Under the pieces are notes generated by a model, which had not been told where the DNA came from, made no database searches, and was given only the letters and a program-made list of their open reading frames with translations. DNA of 37,779 nucleotides from Ruminococcus sp. (GTDB taxonomy: Bacteria; Bacillota; Clostridia; Oscillospirales; Acutalibacteraceae): positions 1 to 37,779 of the forward strand of contig JAFRGI010000024.1 of assembly GCA_017433905.1 (NCBI GenBank), read 5' to 3'. Positions 153 to 5,766 of this stretch are shown piece by piece. The translations under genes were made by a program, and so were the position numbers. Every line of letters starts with the position of its first letter. Within the stretch, counting starts at the first letter, position 1.

Positions 153-701
153 ATGAAACGAAAAACAGCAAAAGAAATCCTCGCCGAGTCCTTTCGGGAA
201 TTGGCAGAGAATAAAAATATTGATAAGATTACAGTAAAGGATATTACTGAAAACTGCGGCTATTCCTCGGCAACTTTCTATCGTCATTTTAAGGATAAAT
301 ACGACCTGATTGTGTGGGAGCATACACAGGGCGTGGCTGGAATTATGGCTCAAATCGGCAAGGAAGGTTATCCTTGGAAACAAACTCTGATTGACGGTGC
401 GAACTCGTTTCAGAAAAACAAAGAATATCTGGAAAATCTATTGAAACATACAACCGGACATGATTCGTTCACTCGCAATATGACGGAGATCAATTACAAC
501 GCGCTGAAAAATCAGATTATGCAAGCGAACAGGATCAGCACACTCGACGAAAAGACAGATATGTATATTCGCCTGTACTGTCAGGGAACGGTAGCGCTGA
601 CCTGCGATTGGATTTTCGGAAGATATAAAGCTACTCCGGAGGAACTTGCTGAGGTTTTTGAAAACTCTCTGCCCAAACCGCTTAAACAATATCTTTATTA
701 A
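153..701 (+). CDS. TetR/AcrR-family transcriptional regulator
   Basis: A 182-residue DNA-binding regulator. Residues 1-55 form a TetR-type helix-turn-helix, with the typical 'ITVKDITENCGYSSATFYRHF' core followed by 'KDKYDLI'. The remainder is a helical ligand or dimerisation domain resembling the group that includes DhaS-type activators; no ligand can be named. The gene stands alone upstream of the bacterioferritin-like gene, with 150 bp between them. That gap contains a 19-bp palindrome whose half-site ATGAGAA also occurs upstream of this gene at 88-94, so autoregulation and control of the downstream genes are plausible inferences. The start was chosen because it begins the helix-turn-helix domain; no strong ribosome-binding site is evident (GAAAG about 7 bases upstream). 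Confidence 0.88.
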   Translation: MKRKTAKEILAESFRELAENKNIDKITVKDITENCGYSSATFYRHFKDKYDLIVWEHTQGVAGIMAQIGKEGYPWKQTLIDGANSFQKNKEYLENLLKHTTGHDSFTRNMTEINYNALKNQIMQANRISTLDEKTDMYIRLYCQGTVALTCDWIFGRYKATPEELAEVFENSLPKPLKQYLY

Positions 702-851: not shown

Positions 852-1301
852 ATGACAAAAATTGAACTGTTAAAGGTATTTGCAAAGGGCTGGTTCGGCA
901 ACTCACAGCAGCATTCTATCCACGCGCAGCTTCTGAAAGCTCGCGGACTGAATAAGCTTGGCGACAAGATCATGGCTGAATCCGACGAAGAGTGGGAGGA
1001 AGCGAAAAAGGTCAACGCGCGCCTGATCGAGCTGGGAGAGACCCCTGCTGTTGAGATCGAGTCTTATCCTGTTATCACCGACATCAAGGAAATGCTCGAG
1101 TATGACTGCAAGGACGCTGCCGAGGCTCTGCCGATGATGTCAAAGTCCCTTGCTATGTTTGACGACGACTACGTTACAAGACATATGATTGAAGAATTCA
1201 TCATCGACGAGCAGGAGCACTACAACTGGGTAAAAGGTCATCTCTGCCTGATCGAGCAGATCGGTATGGAGAATTACATTATCGAAATGCTAGGTAACTG
1301 A
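852..1301 (+). CDS. Bacterioferritin-like (ferritin-superfamily) protein
   Basis: A 149-residue four-helix protein. Residues 105-146 closely follow the last helices of bacterioferritin ('DYVTRHMIEEFIIDEQEHYN', then 'LIEQIGMENYI'). By eye alignment to E. coli Bfr, the helix-D ligands are kept (E120, H123) and so is the helix-B Glu (E47). The first-helix Glu is Ser18, the helix-B His is Glu50, and the helix-C Glu is not in register (A90, with E91 next to it). The ferroxidase centre may therefore be altered. Likely role is iron storage or peroxide detoxification in the cytoplasm. The start at 852 has AACGGAGG upstream; an in-frame ATG at 798 has none and would fall within the leader repeat. A small terminator follows. 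Confidence 0.82.
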   Translation: MTKIELLKVFAKGWFGNSQQHSIHAQLLKARGLNKLGDKIMAESDEEWEEAKKVNARLIELGETPAVEIESYPVITDIKEMLEYDCKDAAEALPMMSKSLAMFDDDYVTRHMIEEFIIDEQEHYNWVKGHLCLIEQIGMENYIIEMLGN

Positions 1302-1308
1302 TAAGATT

Positions 1309-1337
1309 AAGGCTGCCGATTTCGACAGCCTTATTTT
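1309..1337 (+). terminator. Short intrinsic terminator after the bacterioferritin-like gene
   Basis: AAGGCTG (1309-1315) pairs with CAGCCTT (1326-1332), followed by ATTTTG. The stem is short and the T-tract weak, so it may be partial and allow read-through into the MarR gene. Confidence 0.55.
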
Positions 1338-1348
1338 GAAATAATGAG

Positions 1349-1789
1349 GTGATTATTATCAATAATTATGATAACATCAAACTCGACAATCAGCTCTGTT
1401 TTCCTTTGTACGCCTGCGCTAAAGAGGTCGTAAGGCAGTACAGAAAGCCGCTTGAAGCACTGAACCTGACCTATACGCAGTACATCGTGATGATGGTACT
1501 GTGGGAGCACGGCGGCATGACAGAAGGCGAGCTCGGCAAAAAAGTACGCCTTGACTCCGGTACGCTTGCGCCGCTGTTGAAGCGTCTTGAAAAGCAGGGT
1601 TATATCAACCGCATTCATCCCGAGTTTAACGAGAACAAGTTGATGATCTCACTTACCGAACAAGGCGAAGCGTTAAAGGAAAAAGCGGTATCTATACCGC
1701 AAATGATGGACGGGTGCATTCAGCTTTCAAGCGAGGAATTGACTATTCTAAAAAAACTACTGGACAAGGCATTGATCAGTATGTCATAA
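1349..1789 (+). CDS. ohrR: OhrR-type organic peroxide-sensing MarR-family repressor
   Basis: A 146-residue winged-helix regulator close in pattern to B. subtilis OhrR. '[20 protein letters not shown]' carries the sensing cysteine (Cys17 here, Cys15 in B. subtilis). The two tyrosines that hydrogen-bond to it are also present (Tyr31 and Tyr42 correspond to Tyr29 and Tyr40). Cys23 is an extra cysteine where the B. subtilis protein has serine. The DNA-binding wing is at about 62-95 ('[19 protein letters not shown]'). No ohr peroxidase is adjacent; the neighbours are the bacterioferritin-like and MBL-rubredoxin genes, which are the likely targets. The start is uncertain: GTG 1349 overlaps the only Shine-Dalgarno-like sequence (GAGGTG 1346-1351), which is better spaced for an ATT or ATC codon at 1355/1358. 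Confidence 0.87.
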
Positions 1790-1811
1790 TAGTATCAAAG
1801 GAGGCTTTGCT

Positions 1812-2753
1812 ATGATTGTTAAAGCAGTAAAATTCAGAAAAGACGGATTTTATACCCAGCCCTTCGCATTCGGCGGCAAGGAAGGCGTAGAAAGATATGA
1901 TAAGAACATCCGCTACCGCGGCAGCTTGCAGAACTATTTGATTGATACAGGCGACGAGGTTATTCTTGTTGATACAGGCTTACCTGCGGGAACTCCCGAA
2001 GAAGCGCCCGACGAGAACAGCTTGGCATATACCGGCAAGGACATTTGCTCGTATATGGATGCCCTCGCTGATCTCGGTTACAAGCCTGAACAGATAACGA
2101 AGATTCTGCTCACACATAAGCACGCCGATCATTCCGGCGAGTTAAAATCTTTCCCCAACGCCAAGATTTATGTAAATCAAGATGAATTGAGCGCGGCTGA
2201 ATTGCAGGGCATTGACAATATAATCCCTGTCAAGTTTACCGATGGCGCGTACTATAATTTCCCCGAGAGTCAGAAGATCACCGACGGCGTGTATTTCATC
2301 AAGGCACAGGGTCACACCAATGGTAACAGCATTATTGTTGCCGAAAATGACGGTTTGTTCTATATGCTCCACGGCGACATTACCTATGTAGACGAGGCGC
2401 TGTATGAGAATAAACTCTCTGTCGTATTCGAGGACATTGCGGCGGCGCGTGAAACACTCGACTGTGTGCGTGAGTTCATCCGCAATCATCCGACCGTGTA
2501 CTGCGGCACCCATACGCCGCAGGGTTATGAGAATCTCGAAGCCAACCGCGTAATGGATTTGGATAACCCTGTGGAAACGATCTTTGAAGAATATGACTTC
2601 ACTGCACAGGAATCCACGGGAATCTATGTCTGCTCTATTTGCGGATATGTCTACGATCCTGCCGAGCATGGCGGAGTCGCTTTCGAGGATTTGCCCGACG
2701 ATTGGCGCTGTCCGCGCTGCAAGCAGCCAAAGGAAAAGTTTAATAAGGCATAA
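1812..2753 (+). CDS. MBL-fold metallohydrolase with C-terminal rubredoxin domain
   Basis: A 313-residue two-domain protein. Residues 1-250 are a metallo-beta-lactamase fold with the full hydrolase-type metal set: H102xH104xD106H107, H168 in GHTNGN, D189 in HGD, and H234. Residues 270-313 are a rubredoxin, with C274xxCG and 'DDWRCPRC' giving C300xxC303. Flavodiiron proteins also carry an MBL domain and sometimes a rubredoxin, but they have the HxExDH pattern and a flavodoxin domain. This protein has neither, and its MBL part looks more like lactonase-type hydrolases. Substrate unknown; an electron-transfer or redox-sensing role for the rubredoxin part is inferred. The gene follows ohrR by 22 bp with a strong AAAGGAGG site, so the two are probably co-transcribed. 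Confidence 0.88.
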
Positions 2754-2846: not shown

Positions 2847-4061
2847 TTGAAGCAAATCATTATTCACGTTGATATGGATGCATTCTACGCCTCTGTTGAA
2901 ATGCGAGATAATCCCTCTCTACGCGGCAAGCCGCTGATTATCGGCTCTATGCCGAATGAGCGCGGTGTGGTCGCAACCTGCAGCTATGAAGCGAGAAAAT
3001 ACGGTATCCACTCTGCGATGAACATCAAAGAAGCTTATCGGCGATGTCCAAACGGAATTTATATGCATCCGAACTTTGATAAGTACAAAGCGGTGTCCGA
3101 ACAACTTCACGAGATATGGAACACATACTCCGAAGCTTCAGAGTATGTAGCTTTAGATGAAGCTTACCTTGACGTTACCAAGCAAGCCGAGAACTTTGAC
3201 GGAGCACGTGAGATTGCGCGTATCATTAAGCGCAGAACGCTTGACGAGCTCGGACTTTCCTGCTCTGTCGGCGTTGCGTATTCAAAGACGGCGGCGAAAA
3301 CCGCAAGCGAGGAGAAAAAGCCAAACGGCTATTTTGAGATACCCGACAAAAAGGCTTTTGTAGATCTGATGATTGACCGCGATGTGCGCTCTCTCTACAC
3401 AGTTGGAGTGAAAACCGCCGAAAAGCTCTACGCTGCAGGACTCCACACCGTCCGTGATGTTCAGGAAAAGCAGGATGAAGTTATTCGTCTGCTCGGTAAG
3501 CAGGGGCATTGGCTAACGCAGCTCGCGTTCGGTATTGATAATCGAAAGGTTGAGCCGTATTTACCACAGAACGCAAAATCAATCAGCCGGGAATTGACTT
3601 TTCAGGAGGACGTTACAAACGAAGTCTTGTTAAAAGATATACTCTTTTTGCTCTCGCTATGCGTGGAAAACCGCGCAAAGCGTTACGGCTTATACGGAAA
3701 AGGTGTAACCCTAAAAATCACCTTTTCGGATATGAAAAGAATTACACGCTCTAAGTTGGTAGTATCGTGCGATTCCGCAATCGAAATTTATAAGGAAGCG
3801 GTACAGCTTTTTGAGCTGGTGGAGAAACGTCCGATTCGCTTAATCGGCGCGGGAATCTATAACCTTTCGACAGAGTATGAAAAGCAACTCAGCTTTGATG
3901 ATTATTTACAGGATACAAGCCGCACAGGGGAGTCAGAACTGAAAGAACAGTTCGATAAAATGCAGTGCAGATACGGTCTTGATTTTGAAGGACATTTGGA
4001 GCAGATTTACCGCTGGGATACGCTTCACAAAACAGCGGAATATATGAGAAAGCATAGTTAA
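2847..4061 (+). CDS. dinB: Y-family DNA polymerase IV (translesion synthesis)
   Basis: A 404-residue error-prone polymerase. The palm motif 'HVDMDAFYASVE' supplies D9 and the steric-gate region F13/Y14; 'VALDEAYLDVT' supplies D104 and E105, so the catalytic carboxylates are intact. A helix-hairpin-helix/thumb region spans about 185-235 and the little-finger domain about 245-370. 'KQLSFDDY' at 346-353 is a likely sliding-clamp binding peptide. Translation starts at TTG (2847) behind AGGAGG with 7-base spacing. I see no LexA box of the Firmicute type (CGAACATATGTTCG-like) in front of the gene, so SOS control is not evident; the paired hairpins at 2785-2830 may act instead. Confidence 0.93.
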   Translation: MKQIIIHVDMDAFYASVEMRDNPSLRGKPLIIGSMPNERGVVATCSYEARKYGIHSAMNIKEAYRRCPNGIYMHPNFDKYKAVSEQLHEIWNTYSEASEYVALDEAYLDVTKQAENFDGAREIARIIKRRTLDELGLSCSVGVAYSKTAAKTASEEKKPNGYFEIPDKKAFVDLMIDRDVRSLYTVGVKTAEKLYAAGLHTVRDVQEKQDEVIRLLGKQGHWLTQLAFGIDNRKVEPYLPQNAKSISRELTFQEDVTNEVLLKDILFLLSLCVENRAKRYGLYGKGVTLKITFSDMKRITRSKLVVSCDSAIEIYKEAVQLFELVEKRPIRLIGAGIYNLSTEYEKQLSFDDYLQDTSRTGESELKEQFDKMQCRYGLDFEGHLEQIYRWDTLHKTAEYMRKHS

Positions 4062-4560: not shown

Positions 4561-5766
4561 TCAATCAAAGAATTTGCGATGGATTGCGCGTACTGCCTGA
4601 TCCGCGTCATCCTCGTTGATGAGAACAGAAATCTTTATCTCAGATGTGGAGATCATCTGAATATTAATCTGTGCGTCAAAGAGCGCTTCAAACATGGTCG
4701 AAGCAACGCCTGAATGACTTTCCATTCCTGCACCGACAATCGAGATCTTTGCAACATGATCGTCAAGAAGAATTTCGCTTGCGCCCTGAGAAAGCACATA
4801 GTCCTTCAGAACCTCCACAGCTGTTTTACCGTGCGATCTGGCAACCGTAAATGAAATATCTTTTTTACCGTCATGACCCTGGGATTGTAAGATGATATCT
4901 ACGTTTATACCCTTTTTGGCAAGACGTGAAAACAGTTTGAACGCAATTCCCGGGATGTTGGGTACGCCCATAACTGAGATTCTGGCAACTTCTGTATCCT
5001 TCGCAACACCGCTGATTAACATTTTTTCCATTTTCGTTTTCTCCTTTACGATTGTGCCGGGCGCTTTGGTCAGTGAAGAGAGCACCTCTAGCTCGATATT
5101 GTATTTTTTCGCCATTTCAACTGAACGGTTATGGAGCACCTGCGCGCCGAGTGTGGCAAGCTCTAGCATTTCGTCATAAGAAATTTCAGCAAGCTTTTTC
5201 GTGTTTTCAACTTTACGTGGGTCGGCGGTGAACACGCCTTCTACGTCCGTGTAGATCTGGCAAAGATCCGCGTGCATTGCTGCTGCGATGGCAACTGCAC
5301 TGGTGTCCGAGCCGCCTCTGCCGAGGGTAGTGATGTCACCGCGTCTGTTAACACCCTGGAAGCCGGCAACAATAACGATGTTGCGGCGGTCAATCGCATC
5401 CTGAATACGCGCCGGATTTACGCGCTTGATACGTGCTGCAGTATGAGCGGAGGAGGTGTCGAATCCGGCTTGCCAGCCTAAGAGCGAGGTGGCGTGATAG
5501 CCAAGCTTTTCTATTGCCATCGCAAGAAGAGCAATAGAAATCTGTTCACCTGCCGCAAGAAGCATATCCTGCTCACGTTTGGATGCCTGGGGGTTAATCT
5601 CCTGCTGTTTTTCTACGAGAACGTCCGTAAAGTCACCCTGTGCAGATACTACAACAATGACGTCGTTGCCCGCAGCATAGGTATCTGTGACAATTTTAGC
5701 CACGTTCATTACACGTTCGGCATTGGCAACAGAAGTGCCGCCGAATTTCTGAACAATTAAACTCAT
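4561..5766 (-). CDS. lysC: Aspartate kinase
   Basis: A 401-residue enzyme phosphorylating L-aspartate at the first step of lysine, threonine, methionine and diaminopimelate synthesis. The N-terminal kinase domain (about 1-245) has 'VQKFGGTSVAN' and 'TTLGRGGSDTSAVAIA'. Two ACT regulatory domains follow (about 265-401), so feedback inhibition is expected but the effector cannot be told. The start has GGGAG upstream. It follows homoserine dehydrogenase by 119 bp on the same strand; that gap has a 7-bp hairpin at 5816-5833. The 3' end abuts the MITE-like element. Confidence 0.95.
   Translation of the reverse strand: MSLIVQKFGGTSVANAERVMNVAKIVTDTYAAGNDVIVVVSAQGDFTDVLVEKQQEINPQASKREQDMLLAAGEQISIALLAMAIEKLGYHATSLLGWQAGFDTSSAHTAARIKRVNPARIQDAIDRRNIVIVAGFQGVNRRGDITTLGRGGSDTSAVAIAAAMHADLCQIYTDVEGVFTADPRKVENTKKLAEISYDEMLELATLGAQVLHNRSVEMAKKYNIELEVLSSLTKAPGTIVKEKTKMEKMLISGVAKDTEVARISVMGVPNIPGIAFKLFSRLAKKGINVDIILQSQGHDGKKDISFTVARSHGKTAVEVLKDYVLSQGASEILLDDHVAKISIVGAGMESHSGVASTMFEALFDAQINIQMISTSEIKISVLINEDDADQAVRAIHRKFFD

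Follow-up and report, generated by a model that had tools for sequence, protein, structure and literature searches.

A candidate OhrR-controlled operon linking a ferritin-like protein with a metallo-β-lactamase–rubredoxin fusion in Ohr-less anaerobes

In a 37,779-nucleotide stretch of Ruminococcus sp. DNA (NCBI GenBank assembly GCA_017433905.1, 1.13 Mb and 74% complete; contig JAFRGI010000024.1, our contig C21; hereafter the window), three adjacent genes on the forward strand, at 852-2753, encode a ferritin-like protein, an OhrR-type MarR regulator and a 313-amino-acid fusion of a metallo-β-lactamase (MBL) domain with a rubredoxin (MBL-Rd). At roughly even odds, we read them as an organic-hydroperoxide-response operon of anaerobes without the peroxidase Ohr, repressed by OhrR, with a rubredoxin-linked metalloenzyme of lactonase type as its effector. 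The gene coordinates and family calls of a first-pass annotation of this DNA stand in Pfam and NCBIfam searches, and the gene set is known from many gut and rumen anaerobes. Gene content, linkage, ligand sets, predicted folds and a correlation between a promoter dyad and OhrR type are established at the level of sequence. The adjacency is genuine and very probably functional, and control of the operon by OhrR is well supported by that correlation. In the one literature collection searched, we found no paper on an OhrR-linked MBL-rubredoxin.

The first-pass annotation had held that adjacency confined to this genome would speak against a module; the neighbours instead recur widely. The genome-contig scan returned 347 stretches encoding some relative (E 1e-3), the best 80 of which each encode a full-length fusion that aligns across residues 1-313 with 80-85% identity. 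Most of their titles denote metagenome-assembled genomes (MAGs), and many name ruminants or rumen. Across 82 loci (these 80 together with L002 and L004), the clusters of open reading frames found near the fusion included HTH59 (30 loci), OhrR (28), ferritin-like (25), TetR (18), glutathione peroxidase (GPx; 13), radical SAM (12), flavodoxin (11) and a small protein (10), all of which are lower bounds because contigs differ in length. The order TetR, ferritin-like, HTH59, OhrR, MBL-Rd was seen in L002, L059, L063, L068, L074 and L076, in some cases with inserts; L068 is from Oribacterium sp. C9. HTH59, a helix-turn-helix protein of about 60 amino acids (e.g. L002:796-975), is the commonest partner of the fusion and carries an RCKW cysteine near its end in 30 of 30 cases; no Pfam or NCBIfam model matched it above its cut-off. 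It is missing from its usual place in the window, the rest of the window's own genome not having been searched for it. In a sample of 59 genomes, a full-length fusion was present in four (the window's own, G035 at 88%, G019 at 81% and G054 at 80%) and the ferritin-like gene in three, each time near the fusion on the same contig, while in the phylum at large the MBL part (E 1e-60) was found in 3 of 398 genomes, including the window's own.

In OhrR proteins, two tyrosines act as partners of an N-terminal peroxidatic cysteine. The window protein has the MarR fold and, as the first-pass annotation had noticed, all three sensing residues: C14, Y28 and Y39 correspond to residues 15, 29 and 40 of the B. 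subtilis structure 1z91 (E 6.4e-37), which carries Ser at residue 15 (Cys15 of OhrR is covered in an excerpt of PMC10294975). The NCBIfam OhrR model was its best match (E 2.4e-47; 160 bits, under the curated cut-off of 200), and peroxide sensing would follow from this family membership. With the OhrR–ohr regulons of Bacillus subtilis and Xanthomonas, the locus shares the OhrR fold, the Cys, the two Tyr and a candidate local operator at the promoter. It differs from them in having a ferritin-like protein and MBL-Rd instead of Ohr/OsmC, in a Cys near position 120 in most aligned rows (25 of 37) and in a dyad of another type than the TACAATT type of the classical regulons. The gene ends at 1789 and starts at 1349 (GTG) or at a non-ATG codon near 1358; a Shine-Dalgarno-like GAGGTG within 1346-1360 is spaced better for an ATC or ATT start than for the GTG inside it, and the bases of this region are identical in G035. 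A second OhrR-type gene in the window's own genome (L174, G000:C26:23451-23861; 53% identity) lies between aquaporin-family and phosphorylase-family genes, with no peroxidase adjoining.

A promoter, TTGAAA-16-TACAAT, lies at 759-786 on the forward strand, with 10 of 12 positions matching consensus. This match is weak by itself, since the scan gave 7 sites where shuffled sequence averaged 5.0; similar hexamers are found at a like distance in relatives. Just downstream of the -10, at 798-822, is a 25-bp dyad, TTGCGCACAATAATACAGCGCACAA, which we consider a candidate operator for the window's type of OhrR. Its pattern, TTGYRCACAA-N7-GYRYAYAA, has one match in the window's own genome. Taking OhrR type A as at least 57% identity to the window OhrR (a set that includes L061 and L074, whose ohrR has in-frame losses) and counting duplicate genomes once, we found that all 13 ferritin-like loci with an OhrR of type A carry the dyad, allowing one mismatch, whereas none of the other 15 does. 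Because the pattern was derived from the same sequences on which it was scored, the evidence lies in this contrast, not in the fit. Among the 15 others, degraded dyads were seen in L003, where ohrR is broken (4 mismatches), and in L057, with no ohrR in view (3 mismatches). The dyad was found somewhere in the contig in 15 of 17 OhrR-A loci, in front of operons without a ferritin-like gene in view in L075 and L107, and, in later stretches, in perfect form in L190 (OhrR-A, 70%) and with 2 mismatches in L193 (68%). The promoters of genes for other OhrR types are overlapped by different palindromes, for example TATATCGnnnnCGATATA in L051, L067, L096 and L098.

The dyad was present in 12 of 13 genome entries searched (two of them, G679 and G780, matched at the same positions and are evidently the same genome) and absent from G019, where ohrR is broken. 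We rejected a wide regulon: 8 of the 12 positive entries have a single match, and the surplus of five rows, two of them from a single genome counted twice, is similar in number to the 4 matches of the reversed pattern. An RNA element at 798-822 was rejected by folding of one sequence (z -1.6), and HTH59 was rejected as the dyad's binder, L052 having the dyad with no HTH59 in view.

The first-pass annotation had also proposed that the upstream TetR gene, with its palindrome, supplies a second input, and a separate candidate TetR-type site is indeed found at the same promoter, a 19-bp palindrome at 723-741 whose centre lies some 27 bp upstream of the -35. The tetR gene itself (153-701, forward strand; TetR_C_8) is only distantly DhaS-like, its match to the DhaS model falling below cut-off, and in G035 and G019, too, the ferritin-like gene is preceded by a TetR gene or its end. 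Palindromes at a like position in TetR loci fall into five site types: TCTCATnATGAGA in the window's kin, ACTGTAaaagTACAGT-like in L042, L047 and L076, whose TetR is about 30% identical, TTTTACAAAA...TTTTGTAA-like in L083, L099 and L104, AAAAGTCCC...GGGACTTTT in L073/L120, and GTACC-type in L059 and L074. The site thus appears to change with TetR subtype, in a comparison without statistics in which a script chose some sites as the best palindrome, the rest were chosen by eye and several are imperfect (L068, L091, L047, L076). Its position upstream of the -35 suggests activation. An AAATTG...CAATTT repeat near the -35, judged by eye, is not retained in G035. At the sister locus in G035, a divergent Crp/Fnr-like regulator and a cupin gene lie upstream of tetR (L166:895-2311).

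Between the ferritin-like gene and ohrR, a hairpin with a T-rich tail (1308-1337, forward strand; -14.3 kcal/mol, z -5.0) is a likely partial terminator; the consensus scan did not list it, and hairpins preceded ohrR in all four relatives folded (L002, z -3.2; L052, -2.2; L063, -4.8; L068, -3.0). In the mechanism we propose, reduced OhrR would sit on the dyad at 798-822 and block transcription until an organic hydroperoxide oxidised Cys14 and OhrR left the DNA. TetR, bound at 723-741 some 60 bp before the likely start, would provide a second and probably activating input, and the operon would yield ferritin-like protein and, behind the partial terminator, less OhrR and MBL-Rd.

Turning to the effector, Pfam finds Lactamase_B and Rubredoxin, and nothing else, in MBL-Rd (1812-2753, forward strand), as first described; the MBL domain spans approximately residues 1-255 and the C-terminal rubredoxin residues 271-313 (2622-2750). 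In AiiA and GcL, the conserved Tyr stands three residues after an Asp; so does Tyr192 of MBL-Rd, after Asp189, in a comparison made without residue-by-residue superposition. In an alignment of 101 fusions, H102-x-H104-x-D106-H107 and the Tyr at the lactonase-type position are invariant, and MBL-Rd has the full ligand set (HxHxDH motif, 5 His and 2 Asp, conserved Tyr) given for MBL-like lactonases in an excerpt of PMC11423328. The MBL domain is of the acyl-homoserine-lactone (AHL) lactonase/methyl-parathion-hydrolase type; identity was 17-23% in its best 30 structural matches after realignment with VIA-align, in which folds missed by Foldseek cannot appear. Unlike AiiA, GcL and methyl parathion hydrolase, the putative enzyme MBL-Rd adds a C-terminal rubredoxin and sits with OhrR. 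The rubredoxin has two CxxC pairs (C274, C277, C300 and C303, in 101 of 101 fusions) and the conserved Trp (W298, in 100 of 101, with Phe in L098), its best matches being 6nw1 and 6rxn. An excerpt of PMC9659907 lists a Desulfovibrio rubredoxin as a lactonase, with no evidence for this alongside.

Flavodiiron proteins with rubredoxin likewise combine an MBL domain and a rubredoxin in one chain, and their two-iron centre has H-x-E-x-D ligands. In MBL-Rd, however, His104 stands in place of the Glu in all 101 fusions, and Pfam finds no flavodoxin domain, the flavodiiron hallmark, after the MBL domain within the 313 residues. With both structure and sequence on the lactonase side, we rejected flavodiiron membership. 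The same features, together with the invariant lactonase-type Tyr, make it rather unlikely that MBL-Rd is a rubredoxin-driven reductase whose two-iron MBL centre reduces organic peroxides, H2O2 or O2 without a flavodoxin domain, although iron-binding MBL oxidoreductases exist (PMC5108564, in excerpt), the rubredoxin cysteines are intact throughout, the gene is linked to OhrR, and flavodoxin (11), FMN-reductase-like (6), PNPOx (7 and 5) and nitroreductase (4) genes occur among the 82 loci.

Mainly because of the lactonase-type site, we favour a predicted role in hydrolysing compounds derived from peroxides, at an iron centre guarded by the rubredoxin, over one as a peroxide reductase. MBL-Rd would be a two-metal enzyme of lactonase type (5 His, 2 Asp, Tyr) that most likely clears an ester, lactone or thioester derived from organic peroxides, its rubredoxin domain supplying or buffering electrons and so keeping a presumed iron centre reduced and active. 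A bolder proposal, which we regard as unlikely, is a new enzyme class in which a lactonase-fold MBL with an iron centre driven by the fused rubredoxin reduces or reductively cleaves organic hydroperoxides, replacing Ohr in anaerobes, with the ferroxidase-less ferritin-like protein as dedicated iron donor.

A shade more doubtful still is that the module responds, through OhrR and TetR, to another electrophile or small ligand (a quinone, fatty acid, bile or plant compound, or hypochlorite), which MBL-Rd then hydrolyses. Members of the MarR and TetR families frequently bind small foreign compounds, the lactonase/organophosphatase fold of the MBL domain would suit such a role, and some loci have transporter, cation-efflux-like or aldo-keto-reductase-like neighbours (named by eye); full retention of the OhrR Cys/Tyr/Tyr set and the recurrence of GPx argue against it.

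The remaining product, a 149-amino-acid protein (852-1301, forward strand; Pfam Ferritin E 8.6e-15), was first called bacterioferritin-like. This holds for its fold, a four-helix bacterioferritin bundle (predicted structure, pLDDT 97.0, and structural alignment), but not for its ligands, which are largely gone. In an alignment to the A. vinelandii bacterioferritin chain, E51, E127 and H130 are kept as E47, E120 and H123, whereas H54 and E94 are replaced by E50 and A89, as is E18 by W14, given an offset of 4 (the structural alignment pairs residue 1 with 5). Three of the six ligands of the canonical two-iron ferroxidase site (4 Glu and 2 His; PMC13168243, in excerpt) are thus replaced, and W48 takes the place of the haem-binding Met of the subunit interface, a Met in 2 of 24 aligned rows. 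We therefore rejected a canonical bacterioferritin site, and also a mini-bacterioferritin, which in the same excerpt retains the ligands. The protein may hold or hand over iron without normal ferroxidase activity. L052 is otherwise laid out like the window, polymerase IV included, with a ferritin-like protein of another type (27% identity), so that the slot is retained and its protein swapped.

Beyond the locus, we looked for co-occurrence in 345 genomes of the order, with thresholds of E 1e-12 for the MBL part, 1e-10 for the ferritin-like protein and 1e-12 for OhrR. Matches were found in 26 genomes for the MBL part, 10 for the ferritin-like protein, 67 for OhrR and 6 for OsmC. A rubredoxin was seen in 24 of the 26 MBL genomes, the others being G751, cut by a contig end, and G703, a weak partial MBL match; the fusion of G483 is split over two frames and that of G515 is partial. 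Nine ferritin-like matches have 77-100% identity, two of these being partial, and that of G483 has 29%. Every one of the 10 ferritin-like genomes also has the MBL part (Fisher 9e-13, relatedness ignored), and OhrR was found in 24 of the 26 MBL genomes (24 of 25 without G703; G558 and G703 have no match) against 43 of 319 others (Fisher 4e-17, relatedness ignored). Shuffled gene order and intervening genes in many loci notwithstanding, this co-occurrence, which extends to genomes with the ferritin-like gene and the fusion on different contigs (G501 and G485), and the tracking of OhrR type by the dyad make chance adjacency without shared function very improbable.

Ohr itself is missing, as the first-pass annotation had stated: no OsmC/Ohr was found in the window's own genome (74% complete), in any of 9 genomes searched or in any of the 26 fusion genomes of the order sample. 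The further argument, that a sensor without Ohr implies an alternative to it, is weakened because OsmC/Ohr is missing from 66 of the 67 genomes in the order sample that have OhrR, whether or not they carry the fusion, and because GPx lies beside OhrR in 6 of 15 fusion-less loci (L175, L176, L182, L186, L187 and L188). Since only 1 of 67 OhrR genomes has Ohr, lack of Ohr characterises the order, and we rejected MBL-Rd as the reason for its loss. The 15 loci, from 43 without a fusion, were among 20 stretches fetched; in L176, GPx is also accompanied by thioredoxin and a pyridine-nucleotide oxidoreductase. A cluster of these three genes on C14 gives the window's own genome another possible route against organic peroxides besides the operon.

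Several observations weigh against an OhrR-repressed peroxide operon. A centre of lactonase type offers no known reason for a rubredoxin. OhrR was not seen beside the fusion in 54 of 82 loci, many on short contigs, and G558 has a fusion and no OhrR match. The regulator is dispensable: ohrR is broken in G019 (L003, G019:C337) and has in-frame losses in L074/L121 and L061, the neighbours remaining open in each case, with the dyad kept within one mismatch in the latter loci. Two OhrR-A loci, L056 and L065, have no dyad in the contig, while L103 has one with 9-bp perfect arms (5142-5166) and no OhrR in the locus, and L191 (G485), which runs into a contig end, has one although the OhrRs found in G485 are only 45-46% identical. 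GPx is not nearby in 9 of 15 fusion-less OhrR loci or in the window. Finally, nearly all named loci are MAGs, in which both labels and binning may contain errors.

The dyad of L103 precedes a gene of an FMN-reductase-like family and the fusion. In the window, DNA polymerase IV (2847-4061, forward strand) lies beyond the MBL-Rd gene. Eight Bacteroidota-labelled MAG loci have the fusion (L050, L064, L069, L090, L094, L095, L100 and L109); all but L109 have their own HTH59 subtype. The ferritin-like protein likewise belongs to a subtype of their own in L064, L090 and L094, and to a different one in L050 and L109. In a quick tree of the 101 fusions (half of its inner branches below 80% support, taxon labels taken from MAGs), 13 of 14 Bacteroidota-labelled sequences form one group (support 82) inside Bacillota, which the fourteenth adjoins; this nesting suggests transfer of the fusion into Bacteroidota. 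A plasmid gene was rejected, the MBL part having no match at E 1e-20 in 72,556 records.

With Ohr missing from 66 of 67 OhrR genomes of the order sample, this locus offers a concrete case for asking what such regulators control: it combines a candidate operator with a promoter that has two candidate inputs, and it encodes two unusual effector proteins. Its regulation should be cheap to test, because the dyad fades with loss of the regulator and the TetR site varies with TetR subtype. If MBL-Rd does act on peroxides or their products, anaerobic oxidative defence would gain a further domain architecture.
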